Positions 10,506-23,854 of a stretch of 23,854 bases of DNA are shown here, piece by piece. Every line of letters starts with the position of its first letter. Position 1 is the stretch's first letter. The stretch spans positions 1 to 23,854 of the IMG/VR virus record IMGVR_UViG_3300020185_000264; one strand, given 5' to 3'. The notes under the pieces were generated by a model, which made no database searches, had not been told where the DNA came from, and worked only from the letters and a program-made list of their open reading frames with translations. The translations under genes and the position numbers were made by a program. Origin of the DNA: a virus.

Positions 10506-13500
10506 TGGCTTCAAGTATTGAAATTGATGTTTCTGCGAATATCGCAAAATTCAAGGCATCAATGGATAAGGCGGCTATTGAGGGCAACAAACTCAATAAG
10601 AGGCTAGACCGAGCTTTTAAGGGTGTCAGCAATGCTATGCGTTCCGTTGGCGCTCTTGCGGGTGTCGCGGTTGCGGGTGGTTTGGGGGCAATGGCGAAGT
10701 CTGCCATTAACTCTGCCGATGCTATCCAAAAGCTAGGCATAAGGACTGGTGCTAGTGCTGGGTTTCTGAGTGAAATGCGTTATGCGCTGTCTCAGAATGA
10801 CGTGGCAATGAAAGACTTTGAGGGCGCGTTAAGAAAGATTAACAAGTCGTCACAAGAGGCAGGGGATGGACTCTCTACTCAGGTTCGGGCTTTTGATAAG
10901 CTAGGGATTAGCGTTAAGGCGTTTCAGGCATTAGGCACTGATGACAAGTTCAAGGTGCTGTCCGAGGCAATCTCTCGCGTAGAAGATCCTGCAATTAGAA
11001 CGCAAGTTGCAATGGACATAATGGGTCGCTCAGGTGAGCAGCTTTTAACCGTTATGCAAAACGGCGCGGGAGGCATTGAAGAATATCTAGTTAAGGCTAG
11101 AGACTTGAACATGACGCTCTCACAAGAGCAAGTGGATTCTGCTGCTGCGGCCAATGATGCAATAGATACACTTACTAAATCCTTCTCAGGTGCGGCTACT
11201 CAGTCCATCCTTCAATACTCAGACGAAATAGCTAGGGCGGCTGATTTAACCCGCGAGTACCTACCCAAAGCGATTAGCGCAGTAATTGAGGTATTTAAAA
11301 TTGCGACTCCTGCGGTTTTGGCTTTCTATACAACACTAAAACTATTAACTTTCGCGCCTCCTATGTTTGCGGCTATTTCAGCAAGCGCGGTAGCTATGGG
11401 AGGAGGGTTAACGGTTGCGAGTGTTGCCACAGGTACGCTCACCGTAGCGATTAGCGCGCTAAAGGCTGGTTTGTTGTTTCTCACTGGACCGGTTGGTATT
11501 GCTTTAGCTGTAGGGTCTTTGGTTGGTTTGGCTTTCCACTTTAAAGAGACAGAAAAGTCTACGTCTGATTTACGCGCAGAGCTTGATCTACTAAAGAGCG
11601 GGAACATGGGTTTGGCTGACAGCATGAATAAAGTCAGCATGGCTAGTGTAGATCAAAGCATTGAGGCGTTACGCAAACAGTACGAGGGGCTTAATTCCGA
11701 CTTAAGACTTAACCTAATAACCTTCGGTCAGTTTGATGACAGGCTCGCAGAATTAGACGAAAGGGCGAGTGTTTTAGTTGAGACTAAAAAGCACCTCATT
11801 GGTCAAATAAACAAAACCAGAGATTCACTATCTAAAGGCGTTACAGCCACAAAACTAAGCTGGGAAGAATACAAGAAAAGCAAAGAGGTACTGACTCAAT
11901 ACACAGGCGAAATTGACGAAGCAACGAAGTCACAAATTAAATTTCTTAAAGTGTCTACACAGACTTTTGAGGAATACAGAAACGCTAACAGTAGAGGCGT
12001 TATTGAGAATTTTGGCAACTCATTAAATGAAGCAAGCGCGGAGTTATACAACACTCAACAAAACCAGGATCTATTTAATCAGGCATTAAAAGATGGTGTT
12101 ATCTCTGGCGAATTAGCGGAGAAAATGGCATCTAGCTTAGGCGTAGAGTACGAAGGCTTAGGCGAGAAAACATCAATAGTCTCAGACGCATGGGAAGATG
12201 CTAACCGTAAAATATTCGACTCGATGCAAACCTTCTTTCGGGATGGTTTGGATGGTTGGGATAACTTCGGTGATTCGGTCAAAGACATAGTTAAGGACAT
12301 GATAGCCTCGATTCTGTCGCAGATTGTGGCACTACTAGCGGCTAACGCTTTCAAGCAACTTATCAGCTTTGTATCTGGCGGTAAATACTTCTCCGGCGCT
12401 AGTTGGTCTGATGGGTTTAGTGAAATGTTCGGCGGTAGTTCTACCAGTGGGAAGTCAAATTTATCAGGCGGCACGACTGGCGGGTTCTTTCAAGACATCG
12501 GAAAGGAAATGGGCTTTAGCTCTACCCAAACTGATGCGGTCTTAGGTGGTGCGGCGGCGGCTTTCACGCTATACAACGGCTACAACCAGATTAAGAACGG
12601 CAACGAGATTTCAGGCGCGGTTCAATTAGGTAGTGGCGCGATTCAAGGTTACAACGCATACCAAAATTTTACAGGCGGCGCGGAATATTCTGGCATGGCT
12701 GGAAATTATCTAGGCGCGGCTGGTAACGTCTTTGGGATATACGGCGGCATTAAGCAAGGCGGCGCGATGGGCTACGGTTCTGCTGCTCTTAACGCATACC
12801 AGTTGTACGGAGCAGGTCAGGCGGCTGGTTGGTGGGGTCAAGCGGCTAATGCCAGCACTTTCGGCAACACGCTGGCAACAACGCCTTACGCTCAAAACTT
12901 AGTCAACCCTAACTTTATGTCCTACACAGACCCAGGGCTAAACATTGCTAATCAAGGGGTATCACAAACAGGCAACGGTTTAAGCTGGTTGGGCAAGGCT
13001 GGAGCGGTCGCTGGTGTCGCTGGCGGTGTTTACGGCATGTACTCAGGCATCGAGCAGGGTGGAGCGCGGGGAGCGGCTACCTTCGGTGCTGGTGCTATCG
13101 GAGCATATGCGGGAACTGCCGCTCTAACAGGTGGAGCTTCTGCTGTACTTGGTGCGATGGGCCCTGCGGGCTGGGCGGCTATGGCTGTACTCGCTCTCGC
13201 GGGTATGGGTGGCGCTAGAGACTACGATCAAATTTTACAAGAAGATTACCTGCCTGACTTGTTAGGACAGCAGGGCAAAGGTCATGCTCTAGGCGCAAAC
13301 GGCGAGACTGGTTTTAACGGCGGCAATACTGCGGTCTTTGGCGCTAATTGGGGCATACAAGGCTCTGGTTTAACGGCTCAACATTTAGTCGATGGTGGCG
13401 AGAACGGCAATGGCGGTTTCTTCACCGGCGCACAGAGGACGCTTGATGGATTTGAGGAGGCATTAAGGGCGGCTGGATTCGAGAGCCTTAACTCTGATTT

Positions 13501-16955: not shown

Positions 16956-17698
16956 AATTAGCGGGTGGTGCAAGAGAGACTTGCACAGTATCGGGAAATG
17001 ACTTTACGCTTACAGGCGCGACAACTGGCGCTATTAGTTTTCTCACGGCGATTACTAAAACAGCTTTGACGATTGATGGCTCTACGGTTTATTGCTATGC
17101 CTTTGAAGCGACAGACCCCAGCACTTACGAGGTGATGGAAATGACGTACAACAGCGCGTCAAATAAGTTGGTTCGCGTGGATACTGAACACGGTTCAAAC
17201 GGCACGAGCGCGGTTACGTTCGACACAGGAACAAGTGCGGTTGTTATCTATCGGGTTTTCTCTGAGCAAGAATTTCTGCTTAGTCATCAGGCGGTTTCGG
17301 CTTCAGGGTATCTTGGAAGCACATTTTCAATGGCTTTAAGCACTGTTGAGCAAATAACCGGATGGACTGAAAACTGGGACACTGGAGGTAATTTTGCATC
17401 TGATAAATTCACGGCAGACAGGGCGCAAAAGGTAGACGTAAAAATACAGGCAGCATTCCAAGTCGGAGCGGATCAAGACCAGATTGATTTGTACATATAT
17501 AAAAATGGCACGGCTGTAAAGAGAAGGAGGTTTAGAGCTAGTTCGGCTGGTCCGCAAACCATAGCTATATCAGCGACTCTAGATTTAGCTGTTAATGATT
17601 ACATTGACTTTAGAGTTAAAAATTCAAGCAACACCGACGGTGTTATTTCTGGTAATGACGACACATTTTTTACAATATCAACGCATGTAGTTCCGTAA
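16946..17698 (+). CDS. Putative receptor-binding tail protein
   Basis: A 250-aa protein, last of the tail block and just before the lysis genes. The N-terminal 110 residues (ALELAGGARETCTVSGNDFT, then LTGATTGAISFLTAI) resemble a tail-attachment module found at the start of many siphovirus fibre proteins, with an R-E-T-x-T-x-x-G-x-x-x-x-x-L-x-G-A pattern. The C-terminal part (about 137-250), including FTADRAQKVDVKIQAAFQVG and LYIYKNGTAVKRRRF, matches the strand order of C1q-like trimeric jelly rolls used for binding host surfaces. Binding target unknown. Confidence 0.55.
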   Translation: MALELAGGARETCTVSGNDFTLTGATTGAISFLTAITKTALTIDGSTVYCYAFEATDPSTYEVMEMTYNSASNKLVRVDTEHGSNGTSAVTFDTGTSAVVIYRVFSEQEFLLSHQAVSASGYLGSTFSMALSTVEQITGWTENWDTGGNFASDKFTADRAQKVDVKIQAAFQVGADQDQIDLYIYKNGTAVKRRRFRASSAGPQTIAISATLDLAVNDYIDFRVKNSSNTDGVISGNDDTFFTISTHVVP

Positions 17699-17699
17699 C

Positions 17700-17906
17700 A
17701 TGAAAGATCAGATTCTAGAACAGTCTCAGAATTTAAGCTGGGCGGGGGCGACAATTGGAGTTGTCGGCGGGATAACCTTAACGGAAGCACTTGCGATAGG
17801 TGGCTTTGTTTTGGCGCTTTTTGGTGCTGGGGTGAATTTCTGGCACAAGTATAACCTGGTTAAGTTGGAACGCAAACGCTTCGAGATGGAATCGAAGGAC
17901 GGCTAA
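17700..17906 (+). CDS. Holin-like protein
   Basis: A 68-aa protein with hydrophobic residues 14-48 (GATIGVVGGITLTEALAIGG and FVLALFGAGVNFW), then a basic tail H-K-Y-N-L-V-K-L-E-R-K-R. Two membrane helices and a charged cytoplasmic end fit a class II phage holin, similar in layout to the HP1 holin family. It opens the lysis cassette, where a holin would form inner-membrane lesions and release the endolysin. It overlaps the next gene by TAATG. Confidence 0.65.
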   Translation: MKDQILEQSQNLSWAGATIGVVGGITLTEALAIGGFVLALFGAGVNFWHKYNLVKLERKRFEMESKDG

Positions 17907-18031
17907 TGACCCAAGCCCTGCACCTTGTCGGCTACTCGCTTCTAGCGGTGGTCTTTTTTTTGGGTGTGCTGATGTTAGCGACATATTGCGCTTTTGTTGT
18001 TGTTGACGTTCTTTACGAGGAACGGTTATGA
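17906..18031 (+). CDS. 41-aa single-pass membrane protein in lysis cassette
   Basis: ATG 17906 overlaps the holin-like stop (TAATG), and the TGA at 18029-18031 overlaps the endolysin ATG (ATGA). Translation begins MTQALHLVGYSLLAVVFFLG, remains hydrophobic to about residue 35 and ends Y-E-E-R-L. Exact coupling on both sides and position between holin and endolysin support a real gene, perhaps an antiholin, second holin or lysis regulator. Confidence 0.6.
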   Translation: MTQALHLVGYSLLAVVFFLGVLMLATYCAFVVVDVLYEERL

Positions 18032-18450
18032 ACCTTACTCCAAACTTTACCCTTCAGGAATTAACAATAAGCCAAACGGCAGAACGTCATGGAATTGACA
18101 ACAGCCCAAACAGTGAGCAAATAATCAATTTAAAGCGGGTTTGTACGGTGCTAGAGGCTGTAAGGGCGACTATCAACAAGCCAGTGATGGTTAGCTCAGG
18201 TTTTCGATGTGAGGCGCTCAATACAGCCGTTAGAGGCGCACCAAAGTCTAAGCATATGGAAGGTTTAGCGGTAGATTTTCACGTTGCCGGAATGACTCCA
18301 CACGATGTCATTGAAGCGGTAAAGCACGTTATTCCATACCGCACACTAATAGACGAATTTGGGCGATGGATTCACCTAGACATAGAGCGCGGAAAGATAC
18401 TCAAGGCGCACAAGATAAACGGAGCTACACACTATGGCCGCATCAATTAG
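18028..18450 (+). CDS. Endolysin, M15 peptidase type
   Basis: A 140-aa zinc peptidase of the M15A-like (Peptidase_M15_3) type that cleaves peptidoglycan cross-bridges. It starts with the family pattern NFTLQELTISQTAERHGIDN. It shows VSSGFRCEALNTAVRGAPKS (55-74) and the zinc motif S-K-H-M-E-G-L-A-V-D-F (His76, Asp83), then E-F-G-R-W-I-H-L-D (His116 as third ligand, with acidic D109/E110 nearby). No signal peptide is present, so it depends on a holin. The last 17 bases overlap the next gene. Confidence 0.88.
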   Translation: MNLTPNFTLQELTISQTAERHGIDNSPNSEQIINLKRVCTVLEAVRATINKPVMVSSGFRCEALNTAVRGAPKSKHMEGLAVDFHVAGMTPHDVIEAVKHVIPYRTLIDEFGRWIHLDIERGKILKAHKINGATHYGRIN

Positions 18451-18616
18451 ACATCTTTTATATAAGTATGACGCGCAAGTATTAAGCGGCATTAAGACCT
18501 ACCTCACGATTGCTCTACTCGTTGCATCGGTGCTGATAATTCCAGTCGGTAAACTCCAATACTTCGTGCAGGCGTTAGCCCTAGCGCATCTTTTTGTTTT
18601 GAGGGTGGCTAAGTAA
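18434..18616 (+). CDS. 60-aa two-helix membrane protein
   Basis: A 60-aa protein with a GGAG ribosome site nine bases before ATG 18434. Two hydrophobic segments are visible: YLTIALLVASVLIIPVG (about 23-39) and YFVQALALAHLFVLRVAK (43-60). It sits between the endolysin and the i-spanin, with overlaps on both sides. It could be another holin or a lysis regulator. Confidence 0.55.
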   Translation: MAASIRHLLYKYDAQVLSGIKTYLTIALLVASVLIIPVGKLQYFVQALALAHLFVLRVAK

Positions 18617-18900
18617 TGCAAATGCTAATAAGCCTATTCACCACAGGCGGCAAGATTAATCCGATAGCAATGCTGTTATTCGTTGGCGTTTCTATTTACT
18701 TGTATAACGACTTTCAGGGCTACAGAGACAGGCAAGAGCTAGCCCGACAATGCGAAGTCTACCGAGCAGCCGCACAAGACAAGATCACTCAACTAAATCG
18801 GAGTAATGACAATGTTACCGAAACGATTGAAAGCATTGACCCTGATAATCTTAATGATTGGGTTGAGCGCATTAATGGGATGCAGCGCAAAGCTGACTAA
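18616..18900 (+). CDS. i-spanin (Rz-like)
   Basis: A 94-aa protein with an N-terminal membrane anchor (about 16-30, PIAMLLFVGVSIYLY) and a charged, helical periplasmic part (YRDRQELARQCEVYRAAAQD, then KITQLNRSNDNVTETI). This is the Rz layout: anchored in the inner membrane, spanning the periplasm to the o-spanin so that the outer membrane is fused or broken in the last lysis step. The o-spanin gene starts inside this one in the +1 frame, the classic arrangement. Confidence 0.75.
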   Translation: MQMLISLFTTGGKINPIAMLLFVGVSIYLYNDFQGYRDRQELARQCEVYRAAAQDKITQLNRSNDNVTETIESIDPDNLNDWVERINGMQRKAD

Positions 18901-19081
18901 GGACTTACAACCCACAAAAACTTACACACCTATTCTGATAAACCAGAATCCCACGACAACCGACCTAGCTATTGCACTGACGCAATGTATAGCAGACCGC
19001 GAATTGCTCTATTTAGATTTCGAGCGCATCAATAAAACAGAGAAACTGATAAATAAACGGATATGGGAAATATGGAAGTAG
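18806..19081 (+). CDS. o-spanin lipoprotein (Rz1-like)
   Basis: A 91-aa protein in the +1 frame relative to the i-spanin, overlapping its last 95 bases. It has a basic start (MTMLPKRLKAL), a hydrophobic stretch (11-22) and a lipobox L-M-G-C with the lipidated cysteine at 26. The mature part, T-Y-T-P-I-L-I-N-Q-N-P-T, reads on for about 65 residues, longer than lambda Rz1 and not strongly proline-rich. It would be an outer-membrane partner of the i-spanin. The end overlaps the next gene. Confidence 0.75.
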   Translation: MTMLPKRLKALTLIILMIGLSALMGCSAKLTKDLQPTKTYTPILINQNPTTTDLAIALTQCIADRELLYLDFERINKTEKLINKRIWEIWK

Positions 19082-20436
19082 TAATTGGAATTATTTTAAT
19101 CCTGGTTATCGGCGCAATAGTCAAGACAGCAAAGGATAAAAAGGAGCGCAAAGAGTTTAACCAGCGCGAGACTCCAAAGCCAACGCCATCAATTGCAGAT
19201 TTACCAGTGGGCAACTATTGCATCATTGATGAATGTACGCCAGAAATAGCAGCAGGGCGCGAGACTAACGGAGCGCAAGACGTACAGGCGCAATTGTATT
19301 TACTAATATCCGAGACAGGCACTAAACCAGCTTTTATTGGAGTGTCATGTGGTGAGCATGGGGTAAATAAACAGCCCACTCTTAACGCGATTAAAGAGCT
19401 ATGTCTCAATATTCCGATACTCGAAGGCGCACCGACTTACTTAGGCGCAAAGTCTGAATTAAGCGATGCGATTGTCGCAGAAAGCAAAAAGGGCGTATTT
19501 AAAATCTATCTTGGCTCACCAGCAGGCGATGTTGCAAGGGCCTTCAAAGATGATGGAATACACATTCACAATATTAGACTCCCTCGGTTGCTAGAGCATA
19601 CTTGGAACGAGCATATCAACTATGTAGCGGCTAAATACGTCTTAGACCGATTGCAAGACAAATCAGGCGCGGTCACTGAGTATTACGAGCTAATCAAGCG
19701 CAGTAATCTACCATCAAAGTTCCAAGACACTCACACGTTCATAAACCTAAACAGAACCCTCAAGGCGTGGGATTTAGCCAATAGTCCTGAAATTCTAAAG
19801 CGCAACCAAGAGTTAAATGCAGGCATAAGAGACAACACTGGAGTGTTGCGAATTGCAGACGTTTTATGCGTTGCTAAAGATTTAGGCTTTGAAAAAGACA
19901 TAGCGCGGATATTTAACGGCATACAGAACGGCATGGATATTTGCAAGGATAGGATTGCTCTAGGTGCTGTAGAGACTTTGGTTCAATCTACGCCACCACT
20001 ATCAAGGCTGGATATGACTCCCATAAGCCGAGATACGTTCAGCGAGTCTAATTGCATTGTGTACGGCGGCACTAGAAACCCATTTAGATACAAAAAGACA
20101 TCCGTAATTCAGAGCGCGTCAATAGGAATAAACAGCCACACCATACGCCACACTAAAGCGGGAACGTGGGCGGGTAAGACTTATCAAGCAGGGCGTAAAA
20201 TTGATGGGACACACGGCATCGTAAGCTATGACCGTGAAACTAAGCAATGGTATGTGTTCATGTTTGAGTACAGCGTAATAGGCGAGCCAAGACGACCAAA
20301 GGGCTGGCAGTTTCTTAACTGGATTCAGCAAGGCGACCCGATTGGTTTAATCGCAAGCACTAACACTCGCAGCCGCGAATGGGATGTTAGTGGGCAAGCG
20401 AACGAGCGCACAAATATTTATTGGATAACAGCGTGA
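19063..20436 (+). CDS. Membrane-anchored protein, nucleoside-hydrolase-like middle
   Basis: A 457-aa protein after the lysis cassette. Residues 5-20 (EVVIGIILILVIGAIV) are a membrane anchor with no lipobox, followed by a basic, proline-containing linker. Residues about 50-170 resemble the start of nucleoside hydrolase folds, especially the DUF1593 type: an early strand NYCIIDECTP, then Q-D-V-Q-A-Q-L-Y-L-L, F-I-G-V-S-C-G-E-H-G, T-L-N-A-I-K-E-L, I-P-I-L-E-G-A-P, and I-Y-L-G-S-P-A-G-D-V-A-R-A-F. The calcium-binding Asp cluster of active hydrolases is mostly absent (only D73 aligns), so it may be non-catalytic or use another chemistry. The C-terminal 120 residues are beta-rich and unrecognised. 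Start could be ATG 19072 instead. Confidence 0.5.
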   Translation: MGNMEVVIGIILILVIGAIVKTAKDKKERKEFNQRETPKPTPSIADLPVGNYCIIDECTPEIAAGRETNGAQDVQAQLYLLISETGTKPAFIGVSCGEHGVNKQPTLNAIKELCLNIPILEGAPTYLGAKSELSDAIVAESKKGVFKIYLGSPAGDVARAFKDDGIHIHNIRLPRLLEHTWNEHINYVAAKYVLDRLQDKSGAVTEYYELIKRSNLPSKFQDTHTFINLNRTLKAWDLANSPEILKRNQELNAGIRDNTGVLRIADVLCVAKDLGFEKDIARIFNGIQNGMDICKDRIALGAVETLVQSTPPLSRLDMTPISRDTFSESNCIVYGGTRNPFRYKKTSVIQSASIGINSHTIRHTKAGTWAGKTYQAGRKIDGTHGIVSYDRETKQWYVFMFEYSVIGEPRRPKGWQFLNWIQQGDPIGLIASTNTRSREWDVSGQANERTNIYWITA

Positions 20437-20681
20437 CATTAGACGAATTATTTCCAAACGTAGCCGCGCAAGTAAAGGCGGCTCTAGCTTCAAACGCTGA
20501 CCAATACGGCGAAGGGCTGACATATAAAAAGCATCAACAGGAGTTAGATAAGGCGGTGGGTCATTTAATGCAATCACTCATTAATAATGATAATTCTGAG
20601 GATAATACAACGCACAGAATTAGCGCGATTATCCGACTCTTAAAGGTGGCTGAGTTAGATGCGATTACAAATATCGACTAA
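20433..20681 (+). CDS. Small protein, possibly DUF5664-like
   Basis: Start set at GTG 20433, overlapping the previous stop (GTGA), giving 82 aa; a TTG at 20421 would add four residues. The helical part Y-G-E-G-L-T-Y-K-K-H-Q-Q-E-L-D-K-A-V-G-H-L then I-S-A-I-I-R-L-L-K-V-A-E-L-D resembles the helical repeat of small phage dATP/dGTP diphosphohydrolase-like proteins (DUF5664: Y-G, then A-x-x-H-L, then a final helix). This is a weak visual match. It overlaps the A1-like gene by 23 bases. Confidence 0.4.
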   Translation: MTLDELFPNVAAQVKAALASNADQYGEGLTYKKHQQELDKAVGHLMQSLINNDNSEDNTTHRISAIIRLLKVAELDAITNID

Positions 20682-22200
20682 ACGAGCTGAGAAAATAGCC
20701 CACCATTGGGACTCAGACTCTACACTATTTGAAAACATGCGATCTGCTGGCCTAAAGGGTAATGATAGGCGCAGTATGCACCGATACCGCAGACAAGCCG
20801 AAGAAATTACAGGTCAAAAGTTAGACCTCAATAGCCCACAAGCACACCAGCAAATTGATTGCCCCTCCACTCTTAACCTCACAGACGCAAGAAAGCATAA
20901 GACTTTCGTTGTCACATCACACACTAACGACTCGCCCATTGTTGACGCATTTTGGGATTCTCTACAGCTTTTCTGTGAGTCTAAAAGCGCACAGCTATTA
21001 GTCGTACCTCTTAGATACCAGAACAAAACCGCCATGAATGCGGTCGCTGATTATCAGTGGGACGAACGTATATACCCTTATGCGGTTACAAAAGACTTTC
21101 ACATACACAAACACCTTGTTATATCGGGCCATAAGCTAAACGCCACTACAGTTAATCCTTTAGCGGGTAAGCAAGCACTAAGCGGCATTAAGAGCGCGGT
21201 CTATGGGCATCCACAAGTCGCATTGCAAAACGTGGGTACACCTAAAGACGAGTTGCCTAAATCTATGATGACTACAGGCAGTTGCAATAAGCCAGTCTAC
21301 TCATCAAGCGAGACAGGCGGCAAAGCGGCATTTAATCATTCAGTCGCTGCGGTAATAGTTCACTTAGTAGGCAAAAGATACTTCTTTACACAGTTAGGTT
21401 TTGATGGTGAGGGCTTTCAGTTTCTAAACGAGTATTGGACACCAGAAGGCGTAGAGAATCGCCATGCAGAGATTGTTCACGGTGATATACATGCCTGGTA
21501 TGAGCGCAAGGACGTTACTAAATCAAAGCTAAGGATTATCGACAGGGTTAAACCTACAACGCAAATATTCCATGATTTACACGATCAGCACATAGGCTCA
21601 CACCATGCCACTATTCGCGAACGAGTAGAGCAAGCCTTAAAGGGTGAGGTGTCGATAGAAAAAGAGGTCAGGCTTTCTATTGATTACCTAGAGCGCATCG
21701 GTAAGGGTACAAAAAACCTAATCGTTGGTTCTAATCACAATGACCATCTAGATCAATGGCATGGATCGTATAAAGTAGAGCGCGACCCATACAACGCAAA
21801 GTTTCACGGATGGCTTTCTAGCCAGATTTACGGCACAGACAGGAATTGTCTACAGGCTTGCTTTGATGAGTTTGGTTGTAAAGTCCATTACGAATTTATA
21901 TCAAGAAACAAGCGCCACAGCATATCAGGCGTGGACACCTCACAGCATGGTGACAAAGGCGTGAACGGTGCGAGGGGAAGCGCACAAGGGTTTAGCATGA
22001 CTATGTTAAAAACCATGATAGGTCATGGCCATTCTGATGGAATATTTAAGGGATGCTGGCAAGTAGGCACTAGCGCGGATGGTATGACCTACGCTAACGG
22101 CTACAGCACATGGACGCTCACGGATGGGGTAATTTACCCTAACGGCAAACGCGCACTAATCCGGCACATTAACGGCAAGACTATTGCGGATTATCTGTAA
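20659..22200 (+). CDS. A1-like metallophosphoesterase
   Basis: A 513-aa protein. The C-terminal half carries a calcineurin-like metallophosphoesterase set in order: HGDIH (274-278), FHDLHD (304-309), VGSNHNDH (356-363), SQHGDKG (428-434) and IGHGHSD (454-460). This matches the layout of the phage T5 A1 protein and its homologs, linked in T5 to host DNA degradation and early takeover. The N-terminal 70 residues are basic and HTH-like (K-R-A-E-K-I-A-H-H-W, D-R-R-S-M-H-R-Y-R-R-Q-A-E) and may bind DNA. The middle part is A1-specific. T5 uses it pre-early, but here it is last in the late-direction operon, with an AAGGTGG ribosome site. Substrate unknown. Confidence 0.7.
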   Translation: MRLQISTKRAEKIAHHWDSDSTLFENMRSAGLKGNDRRSMHRYRRQAEEITGQKLDLNSPQAHQQIDCPSTLNLTDARKHKTFVVTSHTNDSPIVDAFWDSLQLFCESKSAQLLVVPLRYQNKTAMNAVADYQWDERIYPYAVTKDFHIHKHLVISGHKLNATTVNPLAGKQALSGIKSAVYGHPQVALQNVGTPKDELPKSMMTTGSCNKPVYSSSETGGKAAFNHSVAAVIVHLVGKRYFFTQLGFDGEGFQFLNEYWTPEGVENRHAEIVHGDIHAWYERKDVTKSKLRIIDRVKPTTQIFHDLHDQHIGSHHATIRERVEQALKGEVSIEKEVRLSIDYLERIGKGTKNLIVGSNHNDHLDQWHGSYKVERDPYNAKFHGWLSSQIYGTDRNCLQACFDEFGCKVHYEFISRNKRHSISGVDTSQHGDKGVNGARGSAQGFSMTMLKTMIGHGHSDGIFKGCWQVGTSADGMTYANGYSTWTLTDGVIYPNGKRALIRHINGKTIADYL

Positions 22201-22203
22201 GGT

Positions 22204-22250
22204 TTATCCGCGTCCAAGTGTAAGCTAGGCTTATCCGCGAAAGGGTGTAA
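22204..22250 (+). repeat. Two 20-bp direct repeats after the A1-like gene
   Basis: TTATCCGCG-N5-GTGTAA occurs at 22204-22223 and 22231-22250, identical in the outer bases with a variable 5-base middle, spaced 27 bp start to start. They lie between the convergent late and leftward genes. They could be protein-binding iterons; no matching third copy was seen. Confidence 0.55.
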
Positions 22251-22280
22251 ACCTCACATTGCGTGGAAGGTTTACAACCC
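22243..22280. terminator. Hairpin between convergent genes (possible terminator)
   Basis: TGTAAACC (22246-22253) pairs with GGTTTACA (22269-22276), extended by GGG/CCC with one bulged base. It sits exactly between the A1-like gene and the stop of the leftward HNH gene. T-tracts are short on both strands, so termination is uncertain. Confidence 0.35.
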
Positions 22281-22945
22281 TAGACTATACTCACAGTCTT
22301 AGTTTGAAATGTGAACAAGTTCCTTTTGTCTCTAGGGCTTAGTTTGACCATTCTTTGGTTCATATAATTCCCATTACGCAAATGAATTGACGCGCAATAA
22401 CCATCACCGAATATTTTGTGCGCCTCCCTATACCCTGCAATGTAATCTACCCTTTCTTTTTCACAGAAGAAGTAACGGCTAGACCTCATGGGGATACCGC
22501 TTACTCGGTTGTAGTAGCCTTCGTTGTTAGGCGTTCTTTCGAACCCCTTAAAACGGCTCATCTCATCTTTAGCGTGACATATAAAGCCTTTAGGGTATTC
22601 CCTTCGCTTTTTCTTTGGCTTGGCTTTTTTTGGCGGGGTTTTTGTTGCGCGTAAAGATTTTAGGTTTGACTCTACTTTTGGCGCGTAGACATTTTTAACG
22701 ATGTATAAAACAGGCACTAAATCATCTAGATTTAAAGAGTTAGACTTCTGTATGTTTATAGCGGGGTCGCAAGCGACGTAGTTAGTTATAATATCTTTCC
22801 CGCCTAACGAAACAGGCAACACATGATCTATGTGAAACGTGTCAAAACTCAATGCTCGGCCAGAATAAAAGCACTTGCCAGAGTAAGCCTTAAATAAAGC
22901 CTTTCTCAATGCTTGATTATTGGTACAAATAATCTCTTCACTCAT
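22280..22945 (-). CDS. HNH endonuclease, free-standing
   Basis: A 221-aa protein. The N-terminal HNH core has G-K-C-F-Y-S-G (23-29), the catalytic strand F-H-I-D-H-V-L-P-V (37-45), N55, and a final P-A-I-N-I-Q-K-S-N (61-69). A lysine-rich linker (about 101-116, TKTPPKKAKPKKKRRE) follows. The C-terminal 100 residues contain E-R-V-D-Y-I-A-G-Y-R-E-A-H-K, somewhat like the AP2-type DNA-binding half of phage homing HNH proteins. It starts overlapping the HTH gene stop (ATGA), with a GAGGTGGGA ribosome site, and is the last gene of the leftward operon. Confidence 0.75.
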   Translation of the reverse strand: MSEEIICTNNQALRKALFKAYSGKCFYSGRALSFDTFHIDHVLPVSLGGKDIITNYVACDPAINIQKSNSLNLDDLVPVLYIVKNVYAPKVESNLKSLRATKTPPKKAKPKKKRREYPKGFICHAKDEMSRFKGFERTPNNEGYYNRVSGIPMRSSRYFFCEKERVDYIAGYREAHKIFGDGYCASIHLRNGNYMNQRMVKLSPRDKRNLFTFQTKTVSIV

Positions 22946-23112
22946 AATCCCACCTCAATTAGCTCGCGTCTAGGCGAGTACAACACGCCACAATCAACGA
23001 TAAAGCCCTTACTTATCCACTGATATACCTGAGGCACTTTAACGCCTTGAGCCTTCGCAAATTCTACCTTTGATCCTTTGTAATTCGCGGCAATGTATTC
23101 GTCTAGGGTCAT
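22942..23112 (-). CDS. Small HTH DNA-binding protein
   Basis: A 56-aa frame from ATG at 23112 with a GGAG ribosome site, ending in TGA that overlaps the HNH start (ATGA). The protein starts MTLDEYIAANYKGSKVEFAK and continues A-Q-G-V-K-V-P-Q-V-Y-Q-W-I-S-K-G-F, a Cro/YdaS-like helix-turn-helix of about 20 residues. The final part I-V-D-C-G-V-L-Y-S-P-R-R-E-L may form a short hairpin or dimer arm. It could regulate the nearby palindromic promoter or the late promoter, which is not shown. Confidence 0.65.
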   Translation of the reverse strand: MTLDEYIAANYKGSKVEFAKAQGVKVPQVYQWISKGFIVDCGVLYSPRRELIEVGL

Positions 23113-23637: not shown

Positions 23638-23690
23638 TGTCTTACTCCGGTGATGCGTTTAGTTTTAATCGTGTGGTTGTAGTCGTACAT
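23634..23690 (-). CDS. 18-codon micro-frame between two genes
   Basis: ATG 23690 shares its A with the stop of the upstream phosphoesterase (TGATG), and the frame ends in TGA overlapping the next ATG (ATGA). It encodes M-Y-D-Y-N-H-T-I-K-T-K-R-I-T-G-V-R-Q. The fit on both sides suggests a coupling mini-cistron rather than a functional protein. It contains the ribosome site of the 83-aa gene. Confidence 0.3.
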   Translation of the reverse strand: MYDYNHTIKTKRITGVRQ

Positions 23691-23854
23691 CACACTAACC
23701 CATCTGATCGTGATTCTATTAACACCCTAACCTCGTCAAGACTTATTGGTCTATGCCAGAAGTCCCAATTTACATTGATGTAAGGGAATCCTAGAGGCTT
23801 AGTCATGGCATCCTTATGTATGTGACCATGCACATTAACCTCAGCCCTGAACAT
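23690..23854 (-). CDS. Calcineurin-like phosphoesterase, C-terminal end (partial)
   Basis: The frame is open from the right edge and ends in TGA at 23692-23690. The 54 visible residues include the G-H-I-H motif in E-V-N-V-H-G-H-I-H-K, then F-P-Y-I-N-V-N-W-D-F-W-H-R-P-I-S-L-D-E-V, the characteristic end of small metallophosphoesterases. The rest of the domain lies outside the window. It is distinct from the A1-like enzyme. Confidence 0.7.
   Translation of the reverse strand: MFRAEVNVHGHIHKDAMTKPLGFPYINVNWDFWHRPISLDEVRVLIESRSDGLV

Follow-up and report, generated by a model that had tools for sequence, protein, structure and literature searches.

An A1-family metallophosphoesterase gene at the end of a putative late lysis operon in a temperate phage lineage

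At the onset of infection, phage T5 destroys the DNA of its host, a step for which the A1 protein is essential (PMC13250531). A1 of T5 is also needed for host shut-off (PMC8541194, PMC13250531), and in the paradigm drawn from this phage it is expressed early (PMC13250531). What, then, might a gene of the same family do when it stands last behind the genes for cell lysis? The question is raised by a linear 23,854-nt fragment from IMG/VR (the whole stretch analysed, hereafter the window), which carries an HK97-type head-tail module (terminase, portal, protease, capsid, connectors, and tail). The A1-family gene lies on the + strand at positions 20659–22200, starts with ATG, and encodes 513 amino acid residues, exactly the reading frame reported in an initial annotation of this DNA.

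The encoded protein matches the profile phrog_1745 ('DNA transfer protein') with an E-value of 3.2e-98, residues 38–509 of 513 being aligned with positions 46–540 of 542. Relatives were detected by tblastn in 1123 phage records, including many Salmonella and Escherichia phages of the T5 group; all are less than 60% identical to the window protein, and 1056 of them cover at least 80% of the query. Three profiles were built from the window's own clade, for residues 1–58, residues 60–265, and the phosphoesterase part, and A1 of phage DT57C was used as a T5-group stand-in for T5 A1. The profile of residues 60–265 alone found DT57C A1 (E = 2e-19), together with RcCronus (8e-24) and XacN1 (8e-51), and that of the phosphoesterase part found DT57C A1 at 1e-34. 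The profile of residues 1–58 did not find DT57C A1, and the N-terminus therefore differs from that of the T5-group proteins. Similarity to T5-type A1, which the initial annotation had proposed and suggested checking by profile comparison, is thus present in both the middle and the phosphoesterase domains and is not confined to the phosphoesterase core. Searches of Pfam, NCBIfam, and PDB sequences returned no match. Two short conserved A1 peptides were also scanned against the genomes of 84,980 bacterial and archaeal species and gave no relative, although distant prophage copies could escape so narrow a scan. Judged from its sequence, the window protein is a true member of the T5 A1 family, although it is only 26% identical to DT57C A1, with which it shares homologous middle and metallophosphoesterase domains and all catalytic residues.

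The protein can be divided into three parts. Residues 1–58 (20659–20832) form a family-variable helical segment, with three helices in the structure model, that is possibly HTH-like. Residues 60–265 (20836–21453) constitute the A1-specific alpha/beta domain matched by its own profile as described above; the possibility that it arose by duplication of the phosphoesterase domain and subsequent decay was rejected, as no profile similarity was found (probability, 0.2%). Residues 266–513 (21454–22197) correspond to a predicted calcineurin-like/Mre11-like metallophosphoesterase domain. An AlphaFold2 model based on 27 aligned homologues (mean pLDDT, 89.9) was compared with known structures; Foldseek by itself yielded no hit with an E-value below 0.001, whereas those of VIA-align were clear. 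Residues 268–510 of the model superposed best on the archaeal PolD DP1 proof-reading exonuclease (Z-score, 12.8; 196 residues; rmsd, 3.4), followed by YfcE (11.9), Mre11 (11.7), and Escherichia coli SbcD (10.6), where Z differences of less than 1 count as ties. All five metallophosphoesterase motifs claimed in the initial annotation are present and in order, namely Asp276-x-His278 (21484–21492), Asp306 (21574–21576), Asn359-His360 (21733–21738), His430 (21946–21948), and His456-x-His458 (22024–22032). These eight residues are identical in 27 of 27 diverse homologues and are kept in DT57C as well, and the four that the annotation had singled out, His278 (in GDIH), Asp306 (HDLHD), Asn359 (SNHND), and His458 (GHGH), were correctly assigned. 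In the model, the C-terminal half of A1 thus adopts a calcineurin-like/Mre11-like metallophosphoesterase fold. It has this fold and the five motifs in common with PolD DP1, Mre11, and SbcD; it differs from them in that neither PDB nor Pfam gives a match at the level of sequence, and in that their accessory domains and partners are not seen in A1. In comparison with the 98.6%-identical A1 genes of two IMG/VR relatives (L005 and L003), the dN/dS ratio is ~0.015–0.016 (dS, ~0.4; dN, ~0.006). Sequence comparison accordingly portrays the window A1 as an intact enzyme under strong purifying selection.

The fold in itself serves many substrates, and it is conceivable, if improbable, that A1 is a phosphodiesterase whose target is not DNA but, for instance, nucleotides or a defence signalling nucleotide. 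The small phosphodiesterase YfcE and LpxH have structural scores nearly equal to the best, and the neighbouring genes described below are suspected to be nucleotide-related. The closest match is nevertheless PolD DP1 with Mre11 close behind, both DNA exonucleases (although Z gaps of less than 1 are ties), a large additional domain specific to A1 is part of the protein, and T5 A1 mutants lose host DNA degradation (PMC8541194); these observations argue rather for a DNA-directed enzyme.

The gene arrangement bears on the time of expression. Behind the tail genes, in order and on the + strand, follow a holin (17700–17906; phrog_20, E = 1.5e-6), an M15-type endolysin (18028–18450; PF08291, E = 2e-25; phrog_894, E = 2e-37), a Rz/Rz1-like spanin pair (18616–18900 and 18806–19081), u457 (19063–20436), u86 (20433–20681), and A1. 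The spanin call rests on the layout, with overlapping frames and a lipoprotein-like second protein, and the match to the Rz-like spanin profile is at only E = 0.11. With this qualification, the position of A1 behind lysis and spanin genes noted in the initial annotation is borne out, but two genes unmentioned there, u457 and u86, separate the spanins from A1. The stop codon of u457 overlaps the likely GTG start of u86 at 20433, which fits the relatives better than the TTG at 20421 from which u86 had been listed; u86 in turn overlaps A1 by 23 nt, and AAAGGTGG, as read from the sequence, stands before the A1 ATG. No sigma70-like promoter match was found on the + strand from 17600 to 22387, nor did the region after A1 yield an intrinsic terminator; these scans are weak evidence, since promoter-like sites were fewer than in shuffles. 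The GC content of A1 (0.455) is that of the late region (0.454). A self-promoted moron was considered as an origin for A1 and rejected on account of the overlapping frames, the matching GC content, and the lack of a promoter-like site.

The genes downstream of A1 lie on the opposite strand. A free-standing HNH endonuclease gene (22280–22945, − strand; PF13395, E = 5e-7), situated between A1 and these convergent genes, represents a ~640-nt insertion, the corresponding junction being empty in L005, and could drive exchange of A1 alleles. At the edge of the window (23690–23854, − strand) is the C-terminal fragment of a small phosphoesterase (phrog_547, E = 2e-9).

The same terminal position is found in the IMG/VR relatives examined, A1 being the last rightward gene facing leftward genes in L003–L005, L007–L009, L011, and L026. 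Among these, L005 encodes an integrase (phrog_1, E = 5e-62) and a CI-like repressor (phrog_4, E = 2e-36), and L007 an integrase and an XRE repressor. The window itself contains neither gene and ends before such genes would appear. Because L005 and L007 carry both, the lineage of the window is considered temperate, which the initial annotation missed and which provides a reason for the late placement of A1. L026 and L008 instead carry replication modules whose polymerase, named from sequence, is of the PolA type, and no integrase was found in them. Of the two possibilities originally offered, a promoter of its own or late action, the frame overlaps, the lack of a promoter-like site, and the conserved last-gene position favour late co-expression and speak against the former; the operon anatomy thus leads us to infer that A1 is transcribed late.

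A1 genes are placed quite differently in many other phages. In DT57C, A1 is pre-early and adjoins A2 and dmp; the homologue in Stappia phage SI01 lies between a helicase and a ligase gene, that in Vibrio phage RYC near thymidylate synthase and ribonucleotide reductase genes, and those of many other phages within modules for replication or nucleotide metabolism, a setting that points to early or middle expression in these phages. PhiCbK gp126 and KASIA p106 (PMC3556154, PMC8541194) are likewise A1 homologues outside the T5 group, but differ from the window gene in being placed in replication modules. In T5, A1 is among the pre-early genes in the terminal repeat, whereas the window A1 closes a putative late lysis operon of a temperate lineage, without A2 or dmp beside it. 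The late-end position is not new, however, as sequenced phages such as RcCronus offer precedents, which the initial annotation overlooked. RcCronus gp22 ('T5 A1-like'), from a small Rhodobacter siphophage listed as temperate (PMC8601537), also stands at the 3' end of a structural operon, but shows 27% identity, comes after tail genes and not after lysis genes, is itself followed by ssb, and belongs to a separate tree clade. The Sinorhizobium plasmid pLM21S1, which has phage genes, similarly carries an A1 homologue after tail genes and a glycoside hydrolase gene (endolysin-like); its product is longer (613 aa), 26% identical, and outside the window's clade. The tree groups the window gene with other late-end genes in a supported clade, six in all, and at least two changes are needed to account for late-end placement. 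The window A1 is a variant of a known family. A further homologue lies at 11698–13368 of an Endozoicomonas plasmid (L062; NZ_CP103299.1) that also encodes a terminase, an N4-gp56-type capsid protein, RecT, and HTH regulators and, from this gene content, is likely a phage-plasmid.

These placements, together with the T5 paradigm (PMC13250531) and the fact that non-sigma70 promoters escape consensus scans, could be taken to mean that A1 is transcribed early from a promoter of its own despite its position. We regard this as unlikely: the frames overlap from u457 through u86 to A1, there is no promoter-like site nearby on the + strand, and early destruction of host DNA would shut the lysogenic route that is open to the relatives. 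Less probable still is a role in packaging or ejection, which the initial annotation had entertained, with A1 acting as a virion protein or a second-step transfer protein. The PHROG name and the need for both A1 and A2 in the second-step transfer of T5 (PMC13250531) would fit such a role, as would the A1 homologues lying a few genes upstream of the large terminase gene in L035 (1388–2902) and L041 (9893–11419). The close relatives of the window, however, have the small genomes of ordinary tailed phages, nothing resembling A2 was noticed beside A1, and the phosphoesterase site is fully kept; the suggestion finds no support here.

An indication of what is retained at this position comes from L017. 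Its homology to the window begins at 17700, breaks off at 20660, exactly where A1 starts, and resumes at 22950. Its A1 slot holds a 330-aa zinc-ribbon metallophosphoesterase (phrog_221, E = 3e-47) that is unrelated in sequence to A1, and the phrog_221 gene occupies this slot at the same coordinates in L017 and L016 (7603–8592 in each). One metallophosphoesterase has been swapped for another, and the comparison therefore suggests that enzymatic activity is what selection keeps. This bears on the proposal made for the KASIA and phiCbK proteins, according to which A1 would be mainly an RNA-polymerase-binding regulator, here one acting late to shut transcription off, with the phosphoesterase site being secondary. 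One paper (PMC8541194) cites binding of host RNA polymerase by T5 A1, reports no nuclease activity of A1, and relates the proposal of the phiCbK authors that gene expression is altered via the host polymerase. Besides the exchange of the slot for a different metallophosphoesterase, the invariance of all eight catalytic residues tells against a mainly regulatory role, and little would be left to regulate for a late regulator placed after lysis; we consider this proposal rather unlikely for the window protein.

The two genes between the spanins and A1 provide a possible context. u457 had been suspected from its sequence to be nucleoside-hydrolase-like before modelling; its model is of low confidence (pLDDT, 46.5), yet most of the top-ranking structures that it matches are nucleoside hydrolases (residues 48–275; Z-score up to 8.8). 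No match was found in Pfam or, with a six-sequence low-diversity profile, to a single E. coli RihC sequence, and no homologue in the phage record collection. With its N-terminal transmembrane helix, u457 is predicted to be membrane-anchored and probably nucleoside-hydrolase-like over about residues 48–275; it is a candidate enzyme at most, its putative aspartate motif being kept only in part. The small protein u86 gave a sub-threshold match (E = 0.008) to the N-terminal domain of dATP/dGTP diphosphohydrolases (PF18909), and a homologue also stands directly before A1 in L011, an otherwise different contig whose other late genes look myophage-like. In L026, u457 is kept (92%), A1 is 52% identical, and u86 is absent. 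A u457 gene is also present without A1 in L020, and in L009 (2743–3689) the homologue is split across two overlapping frames, through decay, assembly error, or programmed frameshift. The theme of nucleotide breakdown among the neighbours of A1 is a lead and not a result.

Altogether, we favour, with a probability of roughly 0.55, the reading that A1 is a late-expressed, DNA-directed metallonuclease of the A1 family, encoded by the last cistron of a late operon and off in lysogens. A helical N-terminus and the A1-specific alpha/beta domain would be combined with a Mre11/DP1-like two-metal phosphoesterase whose active site appears intact. A1 would be translated by coupling, last after the holin, endolysin, spanins, u457, and u86, and the late promoter would keep it silent in lysogens and on the lysogenic branch, so that it would come on only after commitment to the lytic cycle. 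Its most likely action would be to cut or degrade host (or unpackaged) DNA, and u457 and u86 may assist, possibly by acting on the released nucleosides or nucleotides; the nuclease activity, the substrate, and the roles of the neighbours are proposed here by inference. It is more speculative, and on balance doubtful, that the region behind temperate lysis genes constitutes an exchangeable slot for late DNA destruction, in which a membrane-anchored protein resembling nucleoside hydrolases (as u457), a small protein resembling nucleotide enzymes (as u86), and an interchangeable metallonuclease (A1 or phrog_221) jointly convert host DNA to free bases around lysis.

If this last proposal is true, the slot would be a late-phase counterpart of the pre-early host destruction by T5. 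A known early weapon of T5 has seemingly been shifted to the close of infection, a place in which it would be silent in the lysogen, and small temperate phages with an intact late-end A1 that lacks an adjoining A2 make it possible to test the role of A1 in its own right. Should A1 be a late nuclease, temperate phages would destroy the DNA of their hosts as the cycle ends, with effects on transduction, on nucleotide release at lysis, and on the timing of damage-sensing defences.
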